Source of the DNA: a virus
IMG/VR virus record: IMGVR_UViG_3300037963_005223
Span: 1-33,113 of that record
Length of the DNA stretch: 33,113 bases
Direction: 5' to 3' (one strand)
Shown here: positions 5,515 through 33,113 of the stretch, piece after piece
How positions within the stretch are numbered: the stretch's first letter is position 1
How the letters are laid out: every line of letters starts with the position of its first letter
Translations under genes and position numbers: made by a program
The notes under the pieces: generated by a model
The model's input: only the letters and a program-made list of their open reading frames with translations
Databases searched by the model: none
What the model was told of the DNA's origin: nothing

Positions 5515-7074
5515 CTAGTGTAATGCTGTCCAGGCACTACCATTATACACCATCAATTTATTGGTGGTGGTGTTGTATATTATTAAACCTGCTGCTGGAG
5601 ATGATATTGCATTTTGTTGAGTAGTGTTGCATCGTGGTGGCAAAAATCCTTTTGTGGTGCTGTCTATTTGTAGTATAGCAGTCGCTTCATTTGGATTAAC
5701 GCCAATACCAACAGCATTATCACCACCATTAGTACGTAGCAGATTGGGAAAACTATTTCCATTGACCCGAAAATCAATATCGACACGACCGGTATTTGCC
5801 TCGATACAAAATGCCTGTGTTCCGCCTGCTGTATCCTCTTTACCAATCCGTAAACATTCGACAGCTGTATTGTTTACAAGCGCATTGAAAAGAATTTCTC
5901 CACTCTGTGCATTCCCAGCTGACGTTACATCTGATGCACGAGCAACGATTGACGCATACTCTTTTGCATTTGGAGGACCAGCATCATCCTCTCCATAAAA
6001 ACTAAACTTACCTATTTCCATATCATCAGAAACGTGGCCCAGTTTATTAAACCGTAGCATAGGTGGTTTGTCTGCACTATCATTACTGTTAATCAGCTCA
6101 ATCAATGGATTTGTTTCCGCTGCTGTACTCTCAATGACAACCGAACTCTTTGCTGCAATCGCATCGTTTTTCATTTGCAAAAGTATTGTATTAACTGCTG
6201 CTGTATTATCATTGGTTATGTCAATCAATGATCGGTCATTCGTTGTACTACTATTAGATATAATCTTGGCTATTGCTCCTGTTGTCAGTGCATTTGCCTC
6301 AATGTCCAGGACATCTGCTGTTGTATTGGCTGCAATAATCTCAAGTGCTTTCTGGTCTACATCATTACTATTAAGCTGCACCAATGGTACACCAGTTGCT
6401 CCTGCTGTAGCGTGGTTGGTTATCTCTAGTGTTGCTGCTGGTGCATCAGTACTATCACCGATTGATACTCTATTGTTATCACCATCAACAAATAACATAT
6501 GAGTTTCATCATCGCTCTCAACACGGAAATCTACATCACCTGAAAATTCATTGACAACAACCTCATCTTGTGTGCCTTCACTGATACGCAGCATTTCCAC
6601 ACCGCCAGCTTCAAAAGCAATCAAATCACCAGCATCAAAAAATGCAATCCTGGTATCTGTGTCTCCACTATGCTGAAGGAACTTACCAAAGTTTACAGTG
6701 TTACCAAAGGTTTTTGTACCAGTAAATGTTTGAGTATCACCCAATGTAGCAGTAACCGATGTATCTACAGACAGTGTAACATCACCTTCTGTACCACCAC
6801 CAGACAATCCTGTACCAGCAGCAACACCTGTAATGTCTCCACTACCACCACCACCAGCAGCATCCCATACAGCCTTTGCTCCATCCCATTTCAAAAACTG
6901 TCCTGAGCTTGGACTGTCCTGGCCAATCTTTGTAACGTTACCACTAGTATCGAAAGAAAATACTGTTGTGCTACCTTCTAGTAAGTTACCTGCTGCACTA
7001 AATACTATATCGCCTGACCGTACTGTTAGTTCACTAACACTGGTATTTGAACTGAATTGTCTTACTACTGACAT
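5515..7074 (-). CDS. Tail fibre / receptor-binding protein (519 aa)
   Basis: The N-terminal part contains a glycine-rich linker (DAAGGGGSGDITGVAAGTGL) and repeated short beta segments typical of trimeric fibres. The middle is rich in N, D, T and A with many S/T-beta turns. The C terminus (STTKGFLPPRCNTTQQNA, then PAAGLIIYNTTTNKLMVYNG) is the end-cap found on many marine phage fibres. It is probably the host-recognition protein at the tail tip. GGAGGAATAGATT before the ATG supports the start. No chaperone-type peptidase domain (SGNH or S74) is recognised. Confidence 0.75.
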   Translation of the reverse strand: MSVVRQFSSNTSVSELTVRSGDIVFSAAGNLLEGSTTVFSFDTSGNVTKIGQDSPSSGQFLKWDGAKAVWDAAGGGGSGDITGVAAGTGLSGGGTEGDVTLSVDTSVTATLGDTQTFTGTKTFGNTVNFGKFLQHSGDTDTRIAFFDAGDLIAFEAGGVEMLRISEGTQDEVVVNEFSGDVDFRVESDDETHMLFVDGDNNRVSIGDSTDAPAATLEITNHATAGATGVPLVQLNSNDVDQKALEIIAANTTADVLDIEANALTTGAIAKIISNSSTTNDRSLIDITNDNTAAVNTILLQMKNDAIAAKSSVVIESTAAETNPLIELINSNDSADKPPMLRFNKLGHVSDDMEIGKFSFYGEDDAGPPNAKEYASIVARASDVTSAGNAQSGEILFNALVNNTAVECLRIGKEDTAGGTQAFCIEANTGRVDIDFRVNGNSFPNLLRTNGGDNAVGIGVNPNEATAILQIDSTTKGFLPPRCNTTQQNAISSPAAGLIIYNTTTNKLMVYNGSAWTALH

Positions 7075-7490: not shown

Positions 7491-10400
7491 CTACTCCTTG
7501 TATAGTTTAATTAAATCTCTTTCAATACGCTTCCGTTCCTGGAAGTACATATCAAGAATATCTTTTTGTGGAAGGCTTGTCTCCAAACCAAATAAATATC
7601 CTATTGGTGTTGGTGTTCCAAATCGTTTGACATCTACACGTTCATCAACATCAACAAAAGGATTTAAATCTACAATAGTTTCACCATCAGCTGCCATTGT
7701 TGCTTTTGCATAATCCCGAAGATTTCTTGATCCACCAATTAATGTAAACAACAACATCTCTCTAGCAAATCTTACTCTAGGATTAAATGGTGTTCCATCT
7801 GCATCCTGTCCTGTTTTAGGTAAATAGTATTGCTCTTCATAGTCTCCAAACACAGGTGCTTGTATACGACGCTCGCCAATTGGTCTTGTTGCTATTCCAA
7901 AGTATTCTTTAAACTCAGGCCATTTACCAAATGCTTTTGCCGCATATACAACTTCTGGAGGAACAGTGCTACTATGTTTGTCTGTTAAAGACTTTAAAGC
8001 AAAATCAATTACTGGTCTTGTTTGTCCATCTCTAAAGAATTTCAAAGCACTCTCTGTTACAGTTTGTTCTCCAAAAATAGGACCTGCACACATCATTGCA
8101 ATGTTTATAAAAGTTTCATAACTTTCTACATAAGGATTACTCAACCCAAATGTATACGTTGCTCGACCATCTATTTTACCTTTAAAAATAGCAAACAATC
8201 TAGCGTGTGCTGCATCATCTCCTTCTAACCAAGCACCAACAGCATTTATTTGTTTCTGTGATGCTCTTATTACAGATGCCAAATAGTTATGACCAGCATT
8301 ACCAACAACACTTTTAAATGTAGCATTAACAGTCTCTGAAAGTATTTGACGAGTAAACGACCAGAACATTGTATATCTATTAAATTTTTCTTTTTCTTTT
8401 GTAGACATTGCTCCATAGTCAAGCACTGATTTTTTGGCTAAATCAACAGCCTGATTTATAGACATATCATCAGCCAAGGCAGAATAAAATACAGCTCGTC
8501 TATACGTTAAATCACTAGCATCTGCAAACTGACTATACAAATTACGTTGTGATGGATTTATCTGAGCTATTAGTGTAGCTAAATATGGATCAACTCTTTT
8601 TCCTGTTATTGTCATTCCACCAGCACGCAAAGTTTCAACAGCCTGGCCTTCATAAAATTCAACTTGACCGCGACTTAACCCTAAGTTGAATTGGTCTTCC
8701 ATCATTCGTAGTTCTTTTGCTGTGTAAGCTCGGCCACCCTTAGATGTAAATACAACTTTAGCATCTGGTATCTGAGTAATAGAAGTAGCCTGTCTCATTG
8801 CTGCAAGAGCTCGTCTAGATCCCAATGCTTTAAATGTACGTTGCAATCCTACTGTACCCAACATTATAATAGGACCACTAAATATATTTACACCAATGTA
8901 TCTAGTACCAGGAAACGGCCAACCACCAAGCATACCTTGTGTCATTGATCGACGACCCCAAGAAAGTGCATCACCAAACATATTTTTTAATGCTGCATTT
9001 TGTTTTGGGTCAGCTTTTTGTAAGCTATCAATCATTGTTCTAAGTTTTAAATTACTTGAAATACCATACATTTCTTCAAACGTATTTGCTATTTCTTTTC
9101 CATACAATGCTGCATAATCGGTATTTCTTATGCTTTCAAACAAAGGAACATTTTTTTTAAGACCATTTACCAAATCATTACCAATAGCAATACCATTGGC
9201 ACGATAAAAACGTTTTAAATCATCAAGGACATCTTGTACAACAGATAATGAAGGGTCACCATAATATGTACCATTAACAGGTTTTCCATCAAAAAAGATA
9301 CGCCATACATTATCTTGTGCTTCCTGAATAATGTTATCAACAACAGCTTTATTTTGGTCGGTAACATTTACAACGTCTTTAATTATTCCTTCTACCATTC
9401 TATCTAAAGTAGCTTTAGGAAAATCTAAAACACTTTGTAATTGTTGTTTCATTGAAAACAAATCAGGATTTAATGTTTCTTTGTCGTGAATCATTGCATT
9501 AATTAAATCTACTAATTCTTTTCTTTGACCAGGAGTTACCTTTGTAACTAAATCAAAATGTCTATTTGCAAGTTGTCTACCTAAAGTACCACCAACCTGT
9601 CTTAAATAATTACCATTAATTGGTATTCCTGCGTTGTTTAATGCACTAAATGTACGTATAAACATATTATTATATTGAGATGTTAATGGTCTAAGATTAA
9701 CTTCCATATTTAAAGATGTGTATTGTGGATAGTATTCTAAACGATAGTTTGGATTTTGATCTATCCAATCTGCTTGTAACTTAGATACTACATCACCTCT
9801 TCTAGACCCAAGAATAAATTCAATGAAAGGTATTGGTGGTGTTGGTGTTCGTGTAAATGTAGTTCGTAATGTTTTTAAACCATATCTTTTTTCAATTTTA
9901 GGAATAACTTTTGTAACAAAATTTGTATATGTCAAATCAAGAATAAGTGATTCTGTTGGACGTTTTGAACTTCCAAAAGTAGGTTCTAAAATACCTCTTA
10001 ATCCTTTTCCCTTTTTTGTAAATATACGATTAATAACATTAGGATTATAATAAGTATTTAAAATTTCTTTCCAACTATCTAGCTTAGTAAAATACAACTC
10101 ATAATCAAGAATTAATTGTTGTAAGTTAATTTCTTTTCCTTGTCTTTGTAGTCTTTCTATTTCATTTTTTATTTGATTTCGATAACGCTCATCCATAAAA
10201 GTATTTAAATACTCAACATCATTACCATCAAAACTTCTATCAATTGTTTTTAATACTCTATTTACAATTGGTTCTCGTCTTATTTGATAGGCATCTAAAC
10301 CTAACTCATCAAGAGCAGCAACAGGACTATTTAATTGTTTTGACTTTGCTTTAAACTCTTTATCAAACTGTGAGTAAACTGTATCAATAGCACTATCAGT

Positions 10401-13037
10401 TGTTTTTTGCAGCTGGATAAAATCAGCATTAACATTAACACCAACCTCTGGAAACAAACCAGTTTTTCTTGAGCGTAATGCTTTTATTCCATTTAGTACA
10501 TCTCTTGTTATTTGTCCAAATGCTCCTTTTGATACTTGCTCTTCAAACTCTTTAGCTTCACTAAGAGCAATCACATCTCCCCTTGCTTCTGGTGCTGCTA
10601 ATGCACGTCTGTATTGCTCACCACCTTCACGGAGTTTAAAAGCATCAAGATGTTTCATTGCTGCTGTACTCTTGATAACTTTGTCAATCATATCTCTATT
10701 CTTGAAAGCTATCTCTCCTCTAGATAAATCATCAATCATCTTTCGAAAGCTATCTGATTGTCTTACTCTATCCAGCCCTGCATATTCAATGAGATCTGTA
10801 ATAAGCTCACGACCATTCTTCTTACTAAGACGAAATACACCTTTGTCTACATCAAAAGTAATCCCTTCATTGCGACGTTTTAATTCATTTTGAAAGGCTT
10901 TATATTGGCTACCTTTTAATCTAGATGTATTAACAACAGTACCACCAGCAACAACACTAAGATTTTGTGGTAAGAAGTTCAGTATGTTTTCTCGAATAGG
11001 TACTTTCAAAGTGTTTTGTAAAGCTATTGCTATTTCATCAACAGAAGAAACTCCAAGATCAACCATTACCCTCCCTACATCTTCTTGTGAAAGTGCAGCC
11101 CAAAACTTAGGAGAGTTTAAATCCAAATCCATTTGTCTAGATTTTAGTATTAACTTTGCAATATCATCTTTACTCATAGTAGCTAAACGAACTTTAGCTA
11201 CTTCACTTTGAAACTCAGAAGTTAAAGTATTAGACCGTATTGCTCTTGGAGTATCACTACGTTTCCACCCTTCGGTAATTAACTTTTGTGTTTCAGCTGC
11301 TTCATTGTATATCCGTGCAAAGTCTCTATTAGTTTTAGCTGCTTCTTTAAACTTATTAATCTCTTGCGTTACAAATGAGCCAGCATTAGCCCGAGTTAAT
11401 GCTTCAATAGGCTCATTACTACCACTTTGTACGGATGCAATAATAGCTTTACCTGTTGGTGTTGATTTTATTGTACCTAAGTCTGCAATTTTAATTTCAC
11501 CTTGAGCATCCAAACCAGCCCGAATGGTATGCAGAACTGATAATCTTTCAGCCATTGTATCAGCAGATACTTCTGATAGATTGTTTCTTTTCAGGCTAGC
11601 ATCTACCCAGTCTGCACTTTCAAATGGTTTATCATAGTACTCATTTACAATTTCTTTTGCTGACTTCTCACTTCCAACAGCATCTAACATTTCTTGAGTA
11701 CGTGCCATTTCAGCTTTCAATAAGTAATACTGATAAGGAGATCCAGCAGCTTCTATAACACCTGCTACTCCAGGAGCACCAAGTTTACCAACAGCTCTAC
11801 CAGTAGCAACAAGACCCTTTGAACCTGCCTTTAATGCTAACCCAGGGCCAACAGGAATAGGAAACTCCAAACCCATTCCAAGCCACCAAGCACCAGTCTC
11901 TCCAATAAGATCGGTAACATTTTCAGAACTCTCAAACAACTCTGGTAAACCTTGCATCTTTGCAATATTGACAGCAATCTGGTCTACAACATCAGCACTA
12001 TCAGCCATACGATATGTATCTGTTTCAACAGTGCCTAAATACTCATCACCAAACTTACCAGATGTAGCAGCAACAACAGCAGGTAATGTATTTAATGCTC
12101 TTAATCCTCTACCTAATTGTGTTTCTCTCACAATACCAGCAGTATATACAGGTTCAGTTAAAGCAGTTTTAACTTGTTCTTCACCTAGTAATTTTGGATA
12201 CGGTATTACATCTACATCACCAGGACCAGCAAAACCAATACGTTCTTCACGTTCTTCTTGGGCTTTTTGTTGACGCAACCATTCCTGTATTTCTTCCTCT
12301 GTCATTGGAGGAGCATCTATAATGTCTTCCTGAAACTGCCCCATTTGTTCTTGTATGTCTGCTAAACCTGTTAAGTCTTTTGGATCAAACTCTCCTTCAA
12401 GAATACCTAAATCTTTTAATCGTTGTGCTTCTCTTGCTGCACGTACATACTCTGCTTTGTAATCTGTACGACGTTGCTTTTCCGCTTCTGCTCTGGCCTT
12501 AGCTGCTGCTTCTGCTGCTTCTACTTCTGGTATTGTACCAAGCCGTTGCCTACCAAATGCTTCAGTTACCAACTCCATACCTTCAGCTGGTCTTATCTCT
12601 CCTGTTTCTTCATCTGTAACCAAACCCTTTTCAACATCAACAATACGTGACACACCTATGTCAGGCTGAGAATAAAACTCTGCTGTTGCTGGTCTTATTG
12701 TTTTGCTAATTGCTTGTCTTGCTATAGCCTCTGCTTCTGGAATAGAATAACCTTCTTGTAGCTTTTGTGATTTAATACTTCCAAAAGCATTTAAAGCTGC
12801 TGTACTAACATCTGAATCAGGACGATAAGGAAAAACAGGAATAGATTCTGGTAAACCATATACTTCTTTTGCTTCTAGTTCACCAGCAGCAACTTGTTTT
12901 GCTTGTTGCATTTGATATCTAGATGCTTGCTCATACAAACTTTGTTGTTGCTTACGAAATTCTTCAATCGTTATTTCTTTATTTCGATAACGATTTAAAT
13001 TATTTTGATGTGCTTCGGCAAGTTGTTCTGGTGTCAC
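7491..13037 (-). CDS. Giant internal virion / DNA-ejection protein (1848 aa)
   Basis: The start is GTG at 13037, overlapping the upstream TGA (GTGA), with AGGAAATAGAACC upstream. The N terminus is Q/A/E-rich and helical. Residues about 370-440 contain hydrophobic glycine-rich stretches; another hydrophobic stretch near 1390-1420 has GVNIFSGPIIMLGTVG. The C-terminal third includes SVLDYGAMSTKEKEKFNRYTMF, a segment that I associate with very large ejected proteins of podoviruses. The equivalent in T7-like phages is gp16, which leaves the capsid and forms part of the trans-envelope channel. I see no clear lytic transglycosylase motif (no convincing catalytic Glu region). At 5.5 kb it takes about a sixth of the genome. 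Confidence 0.7.
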   Translation of the reverse strand: MTPEQLAEAHQNNLNRYRNKEITIEEFRKQQQSLYEQASRYQMQQAKQVAAGELEAKEVYGLPESIPVFPYRPDSDVSTAALNAFGSIKSQKLQEGYSIPEAEAIARQAISKTIRPATAEFYSQPDIGVSRIVDVEKGLVTDEETGEIRPAEGMELVTEAFGRQRLGTIPEVEAAEAAAKARAEAEKQRRTDYKAEYVRAAREAQRLKDLGILEGEFDPKDLTGLADIQEQMGQFQEDIIDAPPMTEEEIQEWLRQQKAQEEREERIGFAGPGDVDVIPYPKLLGEEQVKTALTEPVYTAGIVRETQLGRGLRALNTLPAVVAATSGKFGDEYLGTVETDTYRMADSADVVDQIAVNIAKMQGLPELFESSENVTDLIGETGAWWLGMGLEFPIPVGPGLALKAGSKGLVATGRAVGKLGAPGVAGVIEAAGSPYQYYLLKAEMARTQEMLDAVGSEKSAKEIVNEYYDKPFESADWVDASLKRNNLSEVSADTMAERLSVLHTIRAGLDAQGEIKIADLGTIKSTPTGKAIIASVQSGSNEPIEALTRANAGSFVTQEINKFKEAAKTNRDFARIYNEAAETQKLITEGWKRSDTPRAIRSNTLTSEFQSEVAKVRLATMSKDDIAKLILKSRQMDLDLNSPKFWAALSQEDVGRVMVDLGVSSVDEIAIALQNTLKVPIRENILNFLPQNLSVVAGGTVVNTSRLKGSQYKAFQNELKRRNEGITFDVDKGVFRLSKKNGRELITDLIEYAGLDRVRQSDSFRKMIDDLSRGEIAFKNRDMIDKVIKSTAAMKHLDAFKLREGGEQYRRALAAPEARGDVIALSEAKEFEEQVSKGAFGQITRDVLNGIKALRSRKTGLFPEVGVNVNADFIQLQKTTDSAIDTVYSQFDKEFKAKSKQLNSPVAALDELGLDAYQIRREPIVNRVLKTIDRSFDGNDVEYLNTFMDERYRNQIKNEIERLQRQGKEINLQQLILDYELYFTKLDSWKEILNTYYNPNVINRIFTKKGKGLRGILEPTFGSSKRPTESLILDLTYTNFVTKVIPKIEKRYGLKTLRTTFTRTPTPPIPFIEFILGSRRGDVVSKLQADWIDQNPNYRLEYYPQYTSLNMEVNLRPLTSQYNNMFIRTFSALNNAGIPINGNYLRQVGGTLGRQLANRHFDLVTKVTPGQRKELVDLINAMIHDKETLNPDLFSMKQQLQSVLDFPKATLDRMVEGIIKDVVNVTDQNKAVVDNIIQEAQDNVWRIFFDGKPVNGTYYGDPSLSVVQDVLDDLKRFYRANGIAIGNDLVNGLKKNVPLFESIRNTDYAALYGKEIANTFEEMYGISSNLKLRTMIDSLQKADPKQNAALKNMFGDALSWGRRSMTQGMLGGWPFPGTRYIGVNIFSGPIIMLGTVGLQRTFKALGSRRALAAMRQATSITQIPDAKVVFTSKGGRAYTAKELRMMEDQFNLGLSRGQVEFYEGQAVETLRAGGMTITGKRVDPYLATLIAQINPSQRNLYSQFADASDLTYRRAVFYSALADDMSINQAVDLAKKSVLDYGAMSTKEKEKFNRYTMFWSFTRQILSETVNATFKSVVGNAGHNYLASVIRASQKQINAVGAWLEGDDAAHARLFAIFKGKIDGRATYTFGLSNPYVESYETFINIAMMCAGPIFGEQTVTESALKFFRDGQTRPVIDFALKSLTDKHSSTVPPEVVYAAKAFGKWPEFKEYFGIATRPIGERRIQAPVFGDYEEQYYLPKTGQDADGTPFNPRVRFAREMLLFTLIGGSRNLRDYAKATMAADGETIVDLNPFVDVDERVDVKRFGTPTPIGYLFGLETSLPQKDILDMYFQERKRIERDLIKLYKE

Positions 13038-29532: not shown

Positions 29533-29882
29533 AATACACCAGTATAAAAACTTACTGTCTGTACCAATGACAAATGATACGTTTCAAATGTTTGAGTGCA
29601 CATTTTACCAGACCAAGCTGTTTTGTTTTTTCGACGAGAAGGCCAGATTACTTCGCGTGCAATAGGATTATTTCGAGGGTCGGAATGCACTTTTTTTAAA
29701 GCTGCGTGCACTATTACTAAACCTAAATCTATTGTTGTTAATGTAGGTAACTCTACACCATCAAAACTAAAGTCATCTAGTTTTGTTTTATCATAACAAT
29801 ACAGGTGCTGAATGCGACCTAAATTACCACACAAATACTCTAACTCGTCTGAGTACATTCGTACTAGCTTTTCATTGCTCAT
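29529..29882 (-). CDS. Hypothetical protein, first gene of the leftward operon (117 aa)
   Basis: AAGGAAAGAGT precedes the ATG. The leader contains TACAAT and AAACAAA, as before the rightward early genes. The protein has an aromatic N-terminal half (DELEYLCGNLGRIQHLYCYD) and a basic middle (REVIWPSRRKNKTAWSG). No known domain is recognised. Its position at the operon start and coupling to the XRE-like gene suggest an early regulatory or host-takeover function. Confidence 0.55.
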   Translation of the reverse strand: MSNEKLVRMYSDELEYLCGNLGRIQHLYCYDKTKLDDFSFDGVELPTLTTIDLGLVIVHAALKKVHSDPRNNPIAREVIWPSRRKNKTAWSGKMCTQTFETYHLSLVQTVSFYTGVL

Positions 29883-30276: not shown

Positions 30277-30300
30277 ACTCCAGCTGGAGTTTGTTTTTTT
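30277..30300 (+). terminator. Hairpin with T-run in the control region
   Basis: ACTCCAGCTGGAGT is a perfect 14-bp palindrome followed by TTGTTTTTTT. No rightward gene lies before it, so it would end a short leader transcript starting in the control region, or act as an attenuator before the early genes. Confidence 0.55.
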
Positions 30301-30382: not shown

Positions 30383-30532
30383 ATGTATATAAAATGTCTT
30401 GTTGGTGTTGTTATATATTTTGGATTTATTTTGTCTTTTTGGTTTGCATTCTCAAATAGTCTTGATACAATACTGTTAACACTTGTTCTTTCACATTCGA
30501 ATAAATCTAGATGCATAGACGATATGCAATAA
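30383..30532 (+). CDS. Small putative membrane protein (49 aa)
   Basis: An ORF begins MYIKCLVGVVIYFGFILSFW and has a second hydrophobic stretch (LDTILLTLVLSHS) before a polar end (RCIDDMQ). It would cross the membrane once or twice. The stop lies 17 bases before a good terminator (30549-30570), as expected for a transcribed gene. The SD is weak (ACGAAG). It is short and has no recognised relatives, so it may be chance. Confidence 0.35.
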   Translation: MYIKCLVGVVIYFGFILSFWFAFSNSLDTILLTLVLSHSNKSRCIDDMQ

Positions 30533-30548
30533 TCCTTTCCTTGTTTAC

Positions 30549-30570
30549 AGGGTCTTTACGGCCCTATTTT
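30549..30570 (+). terminator. Terminator before early gene 1
   Basis: AGGGTC, loop TTTAC, GGCCCT (one G-U wobble), then ATTTT. It separates the putative 49-residue membrane gene from the 80-residue early gene. Confidence 0.7.
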
Positions 30571-30612
30571 AACTCTACTTGAGTATCTACAACTATCTAC
30601 TAAGGAAATAAA
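30571..30612 (+). promoter_or_regulatory. Early leader module, copy 1
   Basis: Directly after the terminator T-run comes AACTCTACTTGAGTATC with the arms ACTC and GAGT (5-base gap), then TACAAC and TAAGGAAATAAA before the ATG. This is one of five similar modules. Confidence 0.6.
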
Positions 30613-30855
30613 ATGTACACAATCTACTATATTATGAACGTCAACGATCACTATTCATTCAACAGCATACAAATCAGTGAAGATGATCTGTATTGCTGGG
30701 ATAACGGACCACAAGATCACGTTCCTTTCGGCACTGAATATGCAGGTCACTATCGTACAGGATCACTTGACAGCACGCTGTCAAGAATAGATCTTGAGGC
30801 TTATTGTGATCGAATGAATGAACCATCTTACTACGATACTAGATGGTCAAACTAA
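30613..30855 (+). CDS. Early hypothetical protein (80 aa)
   Basis: TAAGGAAATAAA precedes the ATG. The protein is acidic and tyrosine-rich (MYTIYYIMNVNDHYSFNSI, then SEDDLYCWDNGPQDHVPFG, ending YYDTRWSN). It has no membrane segment or known motif. It is a single-gene unit between two terminators, under its own leader module. Small acidic early proteins like this often act on host factors, but nothing in the sequence shows the target. Confidence 0.6.
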   Translation: MYTIYYIMNVNDHYSFNSIQISEDDLYCWDNGPQDHVPFGTEYAGHYRTGSLDSTLSRIDLEAYCDRMNEPSYYDTRWSN

Positions 30856-30864
30856 CTCTATTTT

Positions 30865-30888
30865 GTATCTCCAGCTGGGGATACTTTT
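30865..30888 (+). terminator. Terminator before early gene 2
   Basis: GTATCTCC-AGCT-GGGGATAC (8-bp stem with one wobble pair) is followed by TTTT. It follows the 80-residue early gene by 9 bases. Confidence 0.75.
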
Positions 30889-30934
30889 AACTCTATTTGA
30901 GTATCTACAATCTACACAAACAAAGGAAAAAACT
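30889..30934 (+). promoter_or_regulatory. Early leader module, copy 2
   Basis: AACTCTATTTGAGTATC (arms ACTC and GAGT, 5-base gap), TACAATCTACAC, AAACAAAGGAAAAAACT, then ATG. The order is the same as in the other modules. Confidence 0.65.
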
Positions 30935-31093
30935 ATGACTATTATACTTTTCGATGATGCCTACGCTATCGTGAACGGTGACAAAATAATACCGATCAAA
31001 CATCTACCTATCGACATCCTTCTAGCAGTGGAAAAAGAAGGATCGATCGAAGTATCCGCTGATACTGCACACAATATACTTTACGCCCGATAG
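30935..31093 (+). CDS. Early hypothetical protein (52 aa)
   Basis: The start at 30935 (MTIILFDDAYAIVNGD) is preceded by AAAGGAAAAAACT; an in-frame ATG at 30818 lies inside the preceding gene and would read through its terminator and leader. The fold looks like a small beta sheet (IILFDDAYAIVNGDKIIPIK) followed by a helix (DILLAVEKEG). Function unknown. It has its own leader and a hairpin overlapping its stop codon. Confidence 0.6.
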   Translation: MTIILFDDAYAIVNGDKIIPIKHLPIDILLAVEKEGSIEVSADTAHNILYAR

Positions 31094-31105
31094 CAAGGGC
31101 CTTTT
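31085..31105 (+). terminator. Terminator before early gene 3
   Basis: GCCC and GGGC around an 8-base loop, followed by CTTTT, overlapping the preceding stop codon. The stem is short, so this is the weakest of the series. Confidence 0.5.
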
Positions 31106-31155
31106 AACTCTATTTCAGAGTACTTTACAATCTACATAAACAAAAGGATAAAACT
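31106..31155 (+). promoter_or_regulatory. Early leader module, copy 3
   Basis: AACTCTATTTCAGAGTA (arms ACTC and GAGT, 7-base gap), CTTTACAATCTACAT, AAACAAAAGGATAAAACT, then ATG. The gap between arms is longer than in the other copies. Confidence 0.65.
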
Positions 31156-31707
31156 ATGACTAACTTAGAATACAATGATCACAATACTATATTATGTATT
31201 ATCAACGACTATGAATCATACCAATCAGCCAAGGTTGTGATGGATAAAGATAACTTTATTCGTCTCAATGATTACTGTCTTGATAATAATAATCCTTGGA
31301 TTGACTTCACTATATCTAGAATGAAACACCTTGGATTGACGGGTAACGTCGAAGCAATAGCAAAAGATATTAGTGAGCACTATAGAGACGAACGAATAGA
31401 ACGCTTCAAGTCATCTATTATATCTATAGATATATCAGGTAGACGATGGTTCGATAAAAGATGGGGTAACACTTATAACTCATCACAAGTTCGGGTTATC
31501 ATCTATCAACCTTACATGCTCAATGACAAAAGAACTACATTTTTTGTACCATTCAGCTATGGATACGGTGACCAATACATAGTCAATGCAATAGATGCTA
31601 TCAACGAACGAATAGCAGGGTATGCAGTAGACTATTATAAGCAACGAAATTTTATCAATTGCTCTGTTGTCGACGTTCTACGAAAGAAGGACCTACACAC
31701 ATGTTAG
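31156..31707 (+). CDS. Early hypothetical protein (183 aa)
   Basis: AAAAGGATAAAACT precedes the ATG. The protein is charged and aromatic, with helices (RMKHLGLTGNVEAIAKDI, then YIVNAIDAINERIAGYAVDY) and strands (QVRVIIYQPYM, then TTFFVPFSYGYG). No catalytic motif or membrane segment is seen. The stop overlaps a possible 22-residue membrane peptide. It is the largest of the early accessory genes. I do not recognise the family. Confidence 0.65.
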   Translation: MTNLEYNDHNTILCIINDYESYQSAKVVMDKDNFIRLNDYCLDNNNPWIDFTISRMKHLGLTGNVEAIAKDISEHYRDERIERFKSSIISIDISGRRWFDKRWGNTYNSSQVRVIIYQPYMLNDKRTTFFVPFSYGYGDQYIVNAIDAINERIAGYAVDYYKQRNFINCSVVDVLRKKDLHTC

Positions 31708-31769
31708 ACCTTGACAACATTATATTCTTGATGCCAATAGCCTTGTACCTTTGGCTATTCATCATCTAA
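31701..31769 (+). CDS. Possible 22-aa membrane peptide
   Basis: MLDLDNIIFLMPIALYLWLF ends after two more isoleucines. AGAAGGA lies 9 bases before its ATG, which overlaps the previous gene by 7 bases, and a terminator follows 15 bases after its stop. It would be a single transmembrane helix. The length is at the limit of what can be called, and chance is a real alternative. Confidence 0.3.
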   Translation: MLDLDNIIFLMPIALYLWLFII

Positions 31770-31784
31770 TCTACTTTCAAACTT

Positions 31785-31803
31785 GTACCCAGCTGGGTAC
31801 TTT
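31785..31803 (+). terminator. Terminator before early gene 4
   Basis: GTACCCAGCTGGGTAC is a perfect 16-bp palindrome followed by TTT. As RNA it gives a 6-bp stem with an AGCU loop. Confidence 0.65.
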
Positions 31804-31846
31804 AACTCTATTGAGTACTTTACAATCTAAACAAAAGGAAAACAAA
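31804..31846 (+). promoter_or_regulatory. Early leader module, copy 4
   Basis: AACTCTATTGAGTA (arms ACTC and GAGT, 4-base gap), CTTTACAATCT, AAACAAAAGGAAAACAAA, then ATG. Confidence 0.65.
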
Positions 31847-32287
31847 ATGAACTATGATATAAACAAACAACATTCATTAGCCCTATTGCAGGGGCTACTC
31901 GTACAAGTGGTAGCAGACGATCAAATTTTGATGTCAGATAACGACAGATGCGAACTTGGTCGAGCCTTGCAAGTTGTCGAACGATTACAGCTCGACCCGT
32001 TCGAAGTAATCGCTGATTACTTTGAAACAACTCGAGAGGCAATCGATGAATATGTTGCTCACATCGATCAGCATAACATAGCTTTTGTCATCCCATCAGA
32101 TGAGGTATCAACTATTGAAAGCATCATCGACATTATCAGAGGATACAGCTGGAATGTTGATTTTGATAAGGTTTTGTGTCCAACATTAGACTGTCTTGAC
32201 ATAAGGAACATATCTATAGATATCGACAAAGAAGGTAACTTCTATGTCGAGGTTGACACAAAAGGGTATATGCGAGCAATAAGCTAG
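31847..32287 (+). CDS. Early hypothetical protein (146 aa)
   Basis: The start at 31847 (MNYDINKQHSLALLQ) has AAAGGAAAACAAA before it; an in-frame ATG at 31751 would span the upstream terminator and leader and is rejected. The protein is acidic, with N-terminal helices (SDNDRCELGRALQVVERL, then EVIADYFETTREAIDEYV) and C-terminal strands (NISIDIDKEGNFYVEVDTK). No known domain. It is the last gene before the duplicated cassette and is followed by its own terminator. Confidence 0.65.
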   Translation: MNYDINKQHSLALLQGLLVQVVADDQILMSDNDRCELGRALQVVERLQLDPFEVIADYFETTREAIDEYVAHIDQHNIAFVIPSDEVSTIESIIDIIRGYSWNVDFDKVLCPTLDCLDIRNISIDIDKEGNFYVEVDTKGYMRAIS

Positions 32288-32297
32288 ACCCTTCTAT

Positions 32298-32317
32298 GCC
32301 CTGTAACAGGGGCTTTT
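32298..32317 (+). terminator. Terminator before the right-end cassette
   Basis: CCCTG-TAA-CAGGG with flanking GC pairs (one bulged G), followed by CTTTT. Confidence 0.65.
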
Positions 32318-32364
32318 AACTCTATTTGAGTATTTACTTTACAACATAAACAAAAGGATAAGAC
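32318..32364 (+). promoter_or_regulatory. Early leader module, copy 5
   Basis: AACTCTATTTGAGTA (5-base gap), TTTACTTTACAACAT, AAACAAAAGGATAAGAC, then ATG. The last 17 bases match the first 17 bases of the window exactly, so the left cassette copy probably had the same module upstream. Confidence 0.65.
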
Positions 32365-32535
32365 ATGACTATACAAATTCAGTTAGATGAGTTAGGACTT
32401 TGTGACCTAGCTCAGAGACTAGACACAATAGATTTAAGCACCGCCCTTTCTGCTGTATATGATGCAGACTGGAGCAGCGATGAGCTGCATTTAAAGCAGC
32501 TTGCCATCCGATTAATCGAGGCGTACTATGATTAA
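32365..32535 (+). CDS. Small early protein, right copy (56 aa), unknown function
   Basis: It has the same length as the left copy at 18-188, the same leader (AAAGGATAAGAC) and the same 8-base overlap with the next gene. The N-terminal 23 residues and the C-terminal EAYYD are unchanged, while residues 24-30 differ almost completely (LSTALSA in place of KTEAIAS). By my count about 86% of bases match. The changes do not shift the frame, which supports function in both copies. No domain recognised. Confidence 0.7.
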   Translation: MTIQIQLDELGLCDLAQRLDTIDLSTALSAVYDADWSSDELHLKQLAIRLIEAYYD

Positions 32536-32809
32536 ACGACCAACAGGATACAGGGCGCACGGCGCGCCCTCGGTGGTACGTGGTACACGTATATCTCTCG
32601 AGCTCGATAGCAGACTTGAGCAGGTAGCTGCTCGTCTTGGTATCAGCAAAAGCCAGACCATAGCAGAGTGCGTGCTCGCTTACGTTCTCCAGTTGGAGAT
32701 AGAGCACGGTATAGCAAGTCCTCTCGATGAGGATTGTAGCGGCATTGTAGGCGACACCATAGCAGAACCAATAGATAAATCAAAAGCAGAGGATAACAAT
32801 GAAGAATAA
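32528..32809 (+). CDS. Ribbon-helix-helix DNA-binding protein, right copy (93 aa)
   Basis: It matches the left copy at 59 of the first 63 residues. The DNA-binding strand is TRISLELD and the helices LEQVAARLGISKSQTIAE. The tail after residue 63 differs more. It ends in NNEE, one residue shorter than the left copy, because here the next gene is the extra 81-residue ORF. Both 5' dyads are conserved (32552-32570, 32577-32591). If both copies are in one genome they could form mixed dimers. Confidence 0.75.
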   Translation: MIKRPTGYRAHGAPSVVRGTRISLELDSRLEQVAARLGISKSQTIAECVLAYVLQLEIEHGIASPLDEDCSGIVGDTIAEPIDKSKAEDNNEE

Positions 32810-33044
32810 AATTTATGCAGTAATCCAGGAAGGATACGCAATCTTTGGAATAGGGACAACGCAAGCAGAGGCGATCTCTGATGCAGAACAATGGACAGAT
32901 AAACCATTTAATATAGTCCCCTATAATCAGGCTACAGATGGAGACTTCTTTGTAGTTGAGTGCACACCAGAGCTAGCCAAAGCGGTTAGTCGGGGTGTAA
33001 TCACATACGAGATAATAGATGGAGTCGCTGATGCAGAACAATAA
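32799..33044 (+). CDS. Small hypothetical protein present only in the right copy (81 aa)
   Basis: AGAGGATAACA precedes the ATG, and the gene overlaps its upstream neighbour by 11 bases and its downstream neighbour by 14. The sequence (MKNKIYAVIQEGYAIFGIG, then TTQAEAISDAEQWTDKPFNI, then VVECTPELAKAVSRGVITYE) looks like a compact alpha/beta domain of a kind common among small phage proteins with no known role. The left cassette lacks it and instead fuses its start region to the SWIM gene. Confidence 0.65.
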   Translation: MKNKIYAVIQEGYAIFGIGTTQAEAISDAEQWTDKPFNIVPYNQATDGDFFVVECTPELAKAVSRGVITYEIIDGVADAEQ

Positions 33045-33113
33045 GATACGACTAGACTGGAGGATGATGCCAATAATTTTAAAGCATTTCCAGTTGTTCA
33101 ACGAGAGATGTGC
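33031..33113 (+). CDS. SWIM-type zinc-finger protein, right copy, cut by the window end
   Basis: The first 27 codons are visible (MQNNKIRLDWRMMPIILKHF, then QLFNERC). They match the left copy at 23 of 27 residues. GGAGTCGCTG precedes the ATG. The zinc-binding part would lie beyond the window. This is a partial gene by truncation of the window, with no sign of a mutation. Confidence 0.65.
   Translation, partial: MQNNKIRLDWRMMPIILKHFQLFNERC

Follow-up and report, generated by a model that had tools for sequence, protein, structure and literature searches.

In the genome of an uncultured, probably marine, phage, a small unit made up of a terminator-like stem, a short inverted repeat and an A-rich leader is found again and again in front of early genes. 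Does each copy start a transcript, bind a protein on the DNA, or act as RNA within a longer message? The window analysed here is the complete IMG/VR record IMGVR_UViG_3300037963_005223 (33,113 bases), in which the unit, hereafter the module, occurs five times at 30549-32364. The initial annotation held that an RNA stem-loop at a new 5' end, a processing site or an unusual promoter would fit the module better than a dimeric operator of fixed spacing, and suggested a covariation analysis and a search for the consensus in related genomes. Both were carried out, and the results are reported here together with an analysis of the sequence upstream of the first module.

Genome and early genes

The phage encodes a P22-like portal, a terminase, a Sak annealing protein, RusA, a cytosine methylase and an amidase. 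None of the proteins scanned could be recognised as an RNA polymerase. The 1848-aa protein (7491-13037) had no Pfam or PHROG match and is probably a virion protein; relatives carry an ORF of similar size (1759 and 1868 aa). The ends of the record (1-525 and 32348-33104) overlap at 86% identity, so the real map is approximately 32.35 kb and may be circular or terminally redundant, and the tail of module copy 5 recurs at 1-17. The overlap suggests population variants joined by the assembly or a diverged tandem duplication, and not an exact terminal repeat. An extra 81-aa ORF (32799-33044) is found in the right end copy only. The genes that directly follow the five modules are:

30613-30855, + strand: early gene 1, 80 aa, no assigned function
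30935-31093, + strand: early gene 2, 52 aa, no assigned function
31156-31707, + strand: early gene 3, 183 aa, PHROG match to phrog_6246 (unknown function)
31847-32287, + strand: early gene 4, 146 aa, 32% identity with the fourth module gene of the relative L027 (see below)
32365-32535, + strand: early gene 5, 56 aa, no assigned function, with a diverged second copy at 18-188

The modules had been described as controlling single early genes, which does not hold for the fifth, since it precedes several (the 56-aa gene, an RHH-like gene and a SWIM gene). A further terminator-like site, ACTCCAGCTGGAGT followed by a long T-run, lies at 30277-30290 between the divergent operons, and its CAGCTGG recurs in terminators 2 and 4.

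Organisation of the module

Each module is arranged in the order terminator, AACTC-(4-7 nt)-GAGTA, TACAAT or TACAAC, A-rich leader, SD and ATG, with the start codons, each preceded by an SD, at 30613, 30935, 31156, 31847 and 32365. The pattern AACTC-N(3-9)-GAGTA-N(0-25)-TACAA gave five matches in the window, all on the + strand, starting at 30571, 30889, 31106, 31804 and 32318 (span 30571-32344); 0.01 matches were expected by chance on dinucleotide shuffling, and five were reached in none of 100 shuffles. The five copies and their order of parts, as initially described, were thus borne out, and so were the terminator stems of unlike sequence directly upstream of each copy and the alteration of AAACAAA in copy 1. 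The loops, read in all five copies (TACTT, TATTT, TATTTCA, TATT and TATTT for copies 1 to 5), agree with the reported gap of 4-7 bases. TACAAT is present in copies 2-4 and TACAAC in copies 1 and 5. The hairpin starts 4-6 nt past the terminator stem, and its distance to TACAA also varies (3-8 nt). In the following list, the first terminator was located by sequence scan and predicted fold, and the leader hairpins by pattern match, predicted fold and covariation.

30549-30565, + strand: terminator-like stem, module 1
30572-30584, + strand: leader hairpin 1, ACTC-TACTT-GAGT
30865-30884, + strand: terminator-like stem, module 2, 9 nt past the gene 1 stop
30890-30902, + strand: leader hairpin 2, ACTC-TATTT-GAGT
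31085-31100, + strand: terminator-like stem, module 3, GCCC-GATAGCAA-GGGC, overlapping the gene 2 stop codon
31107-31121, + strand: leader hairpin 3, ACTC-TATTTCA-GAGT, 5 bp possible
31785-31800, + strand: terminator-like stem, module 4, 15 nt past a 22-aa ORF and 77 nt past gene 3
31805-31816, + strand: leader hairpin 4, ACTC-TATT-GAGT
32298-32313, + strand: terminator-like stem, module 5, 10 nt past the gene 4 stop
32319-32331, + strand: leader hairpin 5, ACTC-TATTT-GAGT

Occurrence in related phages

Terminase searches returned approximately 80 related loci. One relative, IMGVR_UViG_3300025093_000071 (L015/L027; here L027), has a terminase 91% identical to that of the window phage and carries four modules, the only further ones that the consensus search in related genomes produced. 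The module was seen only in the window and L027, both among the matches listed by three IMG/VR DNA-pattern scans, where the other matches were judged to be chance, and in five protein-based scans, including one with early gene 3. Searches of Rfam, of cultured phages by nucleotide sequence and with early gene 3 as query gave no match, and the terminase had only distant matches (below 60% identity) in cultured phages. In the other relatives with a readable early region, gene leaders are G-poor (such as ACTAACAAAGGATAA) and neither per-gene terminators nor hairpins were found. At one gene of the related locus L023 (about 5872-5925, - strand), TTGATTCTATTTCAACTACAAC follows a terminator. Its TTGA and TCAA are able to pair, and this single example may represent a distant module copy whose pairing differs.

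Covariation of the hairpin arms

The five window copies and the four from L027 were aligned, the alignment being unambiguous within the hairpin. The arms had been described as invariant, which is correct within the window genome; in L027 they are of three kinds within one genome (ACTC/GAGT, GTTC/GAAC and CTTC/GAAG), with complementarity kept throughout. Over the nine copies the three kinds occur six, two and one times, respectively, with no mismatch, so all 36 of 36 stem cells are paired. Compensatory changes affect two of the four pairs (AU/GC/CG and CG/UA); each of these outer two pairs has both partners changed in three copies, and in no copy is only one partner changed. The observed pairing or covariation score was reached by none of 500 shuffles, and sliding the partner arm by 1-3 columns lowered pairing to 8-60%. 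The nine copies are related and offer only three arm kinds, with L027 copies v1 and v3 probably representing one event, so the changes amount to about two independent ones; we estimate the chance of two independent compensated changes at about 0.004. A 4-bp hairpin was present at the same position after 110 of 1,235 (8.9%) terminator-like sites in unrelated viral contigs, hence a hairpin in a single copy is unremarkable and it is the conservation through changing letters that is striking. These data support the identification of the module hairpin, by comparison of sequences, as a base-paired RNA element.

The preference of the initial annotation for an RNA stem-loop over a fixed-spacing dimeric operator therefore agrees with arms that differ between copies and genomes and always pair, the stem itself being a predicted fold. 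An operator would require a dimeric repressor, for which the RHH (CopG/Arc-like) protein encoded at 32528, just downstream of the inverted repeats and with weak PHROG matches to CopG/Arc-like repressors, could be proposed. However, relatives that have no modules carry the RHH gene as well, and three kinds of half-site in one genome together with spacers of 4-7 bp exclude a single sequence-specific DNA-binding dimer; we find the operator reading scarcely credible.

Alternatively, the module might be a gene cassette that spreads by recombination at short repeats, with the small inverted repeat having no function. The genes between the modules differ between the window phage and L027, two terminators of L027 are identical, and a Sak-type SSAP (annealing protein) is encoded, all of which would suit such a process. 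A passive repeat, however, should not stay complementary while its letters change, and we regard this explanation as unlikely.

Predicted folding

In complete copies the predicted fold consists of the terminator, the small hairpin and an open leader; for window copy 3 and for the first two copies of L027, the folded pieces included only part of the terminator. The features of an intrinsic terminator (GC-rich stem, short loop and T-run) were found in all nine copies, with a T-run of only 3-4 T. The predicted hairpin probability was 0.75-0.91 in eight of the nine copies and 0.35 in copy 5, for a short stem of -1.5 to -3.7 kcal/mol in context. Forcing the hairpin open in silico left SD accessibility unchanged, so no effect on translation is predicted; the same result gave no support to a role of the hairpin in keeping the terminator U-tract away from the SD.

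Outside the stem, the A flanking the hairpin on both sides and the UA(U/C)U that starts the loop are kept in nine of nine copies while stem letters vary. Such constancy, in an element that stands directly before the leader of every module gene, is what would be expected if the hairpin (short stem, flanking A, UAUU loop) were recognised by an RNA-binding regulator of phage or host origin that controls all the early genes jointly, through translation or local antitermination. The loop length, on the other hand, is not constant (4-7 nt), no effect on SD accessibility is predicted, and no candidate RNA-binding protein was identified. We consider a regulator of this kind possible but rather improbable.

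Are the modules promoters?

The initial annotation left room for an unusual promoter with an activator or a modified polymerase, having noted that no -35 box sits at a normal distance. The latter observation stands for all copies but copy 3, which passes the scan with TACAAT as its -10. As a promoter, each module would use TACAAT as the -10 with an activator or altered polymerase, or would be a hairpin promoter of the N4 type. TACAAT does resemble a -10, starts placed behind terminators are common, and in N4 the early promoters retain an inverted repeat whose stem letters can be exchanged (PMC4496689). Against this, the last T of TACAAT is lost (TACAAC) in three of the nine copies, the distance from hairpin to box is not fixed, loops are 4-7 nt as opposed to 3 nt in N4, promoter-like sites show no excess over shuffles, and no RNA polymerase was recognisable in the protein scans, in which the 1848-aa protein had no family match. 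TACAAT is also found in leaders that have no hairpin, one of them at 830 and another ahead of the leftward gene at 29882. In the latter case a TGTGATAG that relatives also conserve precedes it by about 12 nt, so TACAAT is probably part of an untranslated leader there. We therefore hold a promoter in each module to be very unlikely. A single promoter-like site is instead present upstream of all modules in both the window phage and L027, and is followed by a nut-like leader.

30443-30471, + strand: candidate early promoter, TTTGCA-17-TGATACAAT (extended -10), consensus match only
30484-30495, + strand: boxA-like TGTTCTTTCACA, at the same place as TGCTCTTTAACA in L027
30512-30528, + strand: boxB-like hairpin, TGCATA-GACGA-TATGCA, by predicted fold and sequence comparison
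30532-30542, + strand: pyrimidine tract ATCCTTTCCTT, SD-complementary and conserved, by sequence comparison

The L027 counterpart of this region (window 30443-30545) is at 2535-2690. Just after the candidate promoter, ACTGTTAACAC is conserved in L027, and the boxA-like sequence of L027, TGCTCTTTAACA, is what we take to be the E. coli rrn boxA. The boxB-like hairpin of L027 reads TACAAG-GTCGA-CTTGTA; of the six stem pairs, three are changed on both sides relative to the window and none is broken. The loops, GACGA and GUCGA, are P22-type GNCGA pentaloops as far as the fold can be read from the sequence. In the boxB of P22, GACAA, a looped-out cytosine contacts the N peptide (PMC12550061), and the loops of the window phage and L027 fit the P22 class. 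When related genomes were scanned, only the two that bear modules had a boxA-like sequence in their early leader, and the nut-like leader was absent from those without modules. A simple scan for K/R density, applied to the early region, returned no arginine-rich N-like protein; N proteins are short and divergent.

Two further ideas concerning this leader were set aside. Derivation of the boxA from a host rRNA leader was examined through four genome matches, which came from unrelated organisms, were taken as chance and pointed to no host, and the ATCCTTTCCTT tract was considered as an antisense RNA against the module leaders, but module genes pair with it no better than others do. Of the genes tested, the first leftward one (29882) could pair most strongly with ATCCTTTCCTT, through its SD region, with about 13 pairs and -15.7 kcal/mol.

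A model for early expression

In our preferred reading, to which we give an even chance on the basis of sequence features, the modules are not promoters but belong, as intercistronic units, to a single early transcript whose leaky terminators are read through. Transcription would start once, upstream of module 1, and would immediately yield the boxA/boxB (nut-like) RNA, which together with host Nus factors would let RNA polymerase pass the weak terminator before each gene. Terminators other than the first are located between 9 nt ahead of and 16 nt beyond the point where the preceding reading frame ends, and E. coli terminators placed likewise are repressed by translating ribosomes (PMC4824070); terminators 2-5, at or just past the preceding stop codon, would be weakened in this manner. 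The runs of 3-4 T and the distances from terminator to stop point to an early operon with leaky, read-through terminators, where read-through would probably be achieved by antitermination and ribosome coupling combined.

Terminated RNA would end within or before the 5' arm, too early for the small hairpin A-[4-5 bp]-A, which is therefore expected only in read-through RNA. There it would bound, on the 5' side, the G-poor leader and SD of the cistron that follows, and its most likely task would be to limit decay or processing of that leader; the initial annotation's stem-loop at a new 5' end and processing site may well be part of this reading. For the gene at 862 there is a terminator and a TACAAT leader but no hairpin, which indicates that the hairpin is not required for every such gene.

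More tentatively, the module may represent a new cis-acting RNA leader element, in which a per-gene terminator is followed by a hairpin conserved in structure and free in sequence, so that one nut-like antitermination event would turn on separately bounded mRNAs. If the hairpin does bound each cistron, the arrangement would be a compact natural route to separately controlled mRNAs from one read-through transcript. As far as our literature search reached, the combination of a nut-like leader, a per-gene terminator and a paired leader hairpin has no earlier description.

Comparison with known systems

The hairpin promoters of the N4 virion RNA polymerase resemble the module in being small inverted repeats upstream of early genes with partly free stem letters. 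They need the virion polymerase, a 5-7 bp stem, a 3-nt loop in which purines are required, and a fixed distance to +1 (PMC4496689). Module stems, in contrast, are of 4-5 bp with U-rich loops of 4-7 nt and a variable distance to the next conserved box, in a phage with no such polymerase recognisable. The early genes of T7 also have a hairpin unit between consecutive genes, namely the RNase III sites of a polycistronic transcript, but these are long duplexes whereas the module is a short terminator stem with a 4-bp hairpin.

The closest likeness among described systems is with SAS/ESAS, known from mycobacteriophages of Cluster K (PMC3203893) and from Microbacterium EF phages (PMC7302621), where a repeated unit also stands just upstream of many start codons. 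It contains, in Cluster K, an inverted repeat whose spacer varies in length, and its consensus is unlike between relatives. SAS/ESAS combine a conserved 13-bp SD motif with 17-bp imperfect inverted repeats, for which the authors found little support for RNA pairing (PMC3203893). The SD leaders of the modules vary, the arms are of 4-5 bp with pairing kept by compensatory changes, and each unit opens with a terminator. Should the hairpin bound each cistron, the module would be one instance in which repeated inverted repeats of phage leaders are attributable to RNA and not to DNA, a point left open for SAS/ESAS.

With the nut sites of lambda and P22, the early leader shares a boxA upstream of the terminators and, downstream of it, a boxB with a GNRA-like pentaloop of the P22 GN(N)RA type. 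It differs in that an N-like protein was not found in the early region, no lysogeny genes were seen among the phage proteins examined, and a terminator precedes nearly every early gene. If this reading is true, antitermination signals in the style of lambda and P22, here joined to a terminator and a paired leader hairpin before each early gene, would extend to a group of uncultured phages that has no close cultured relative.
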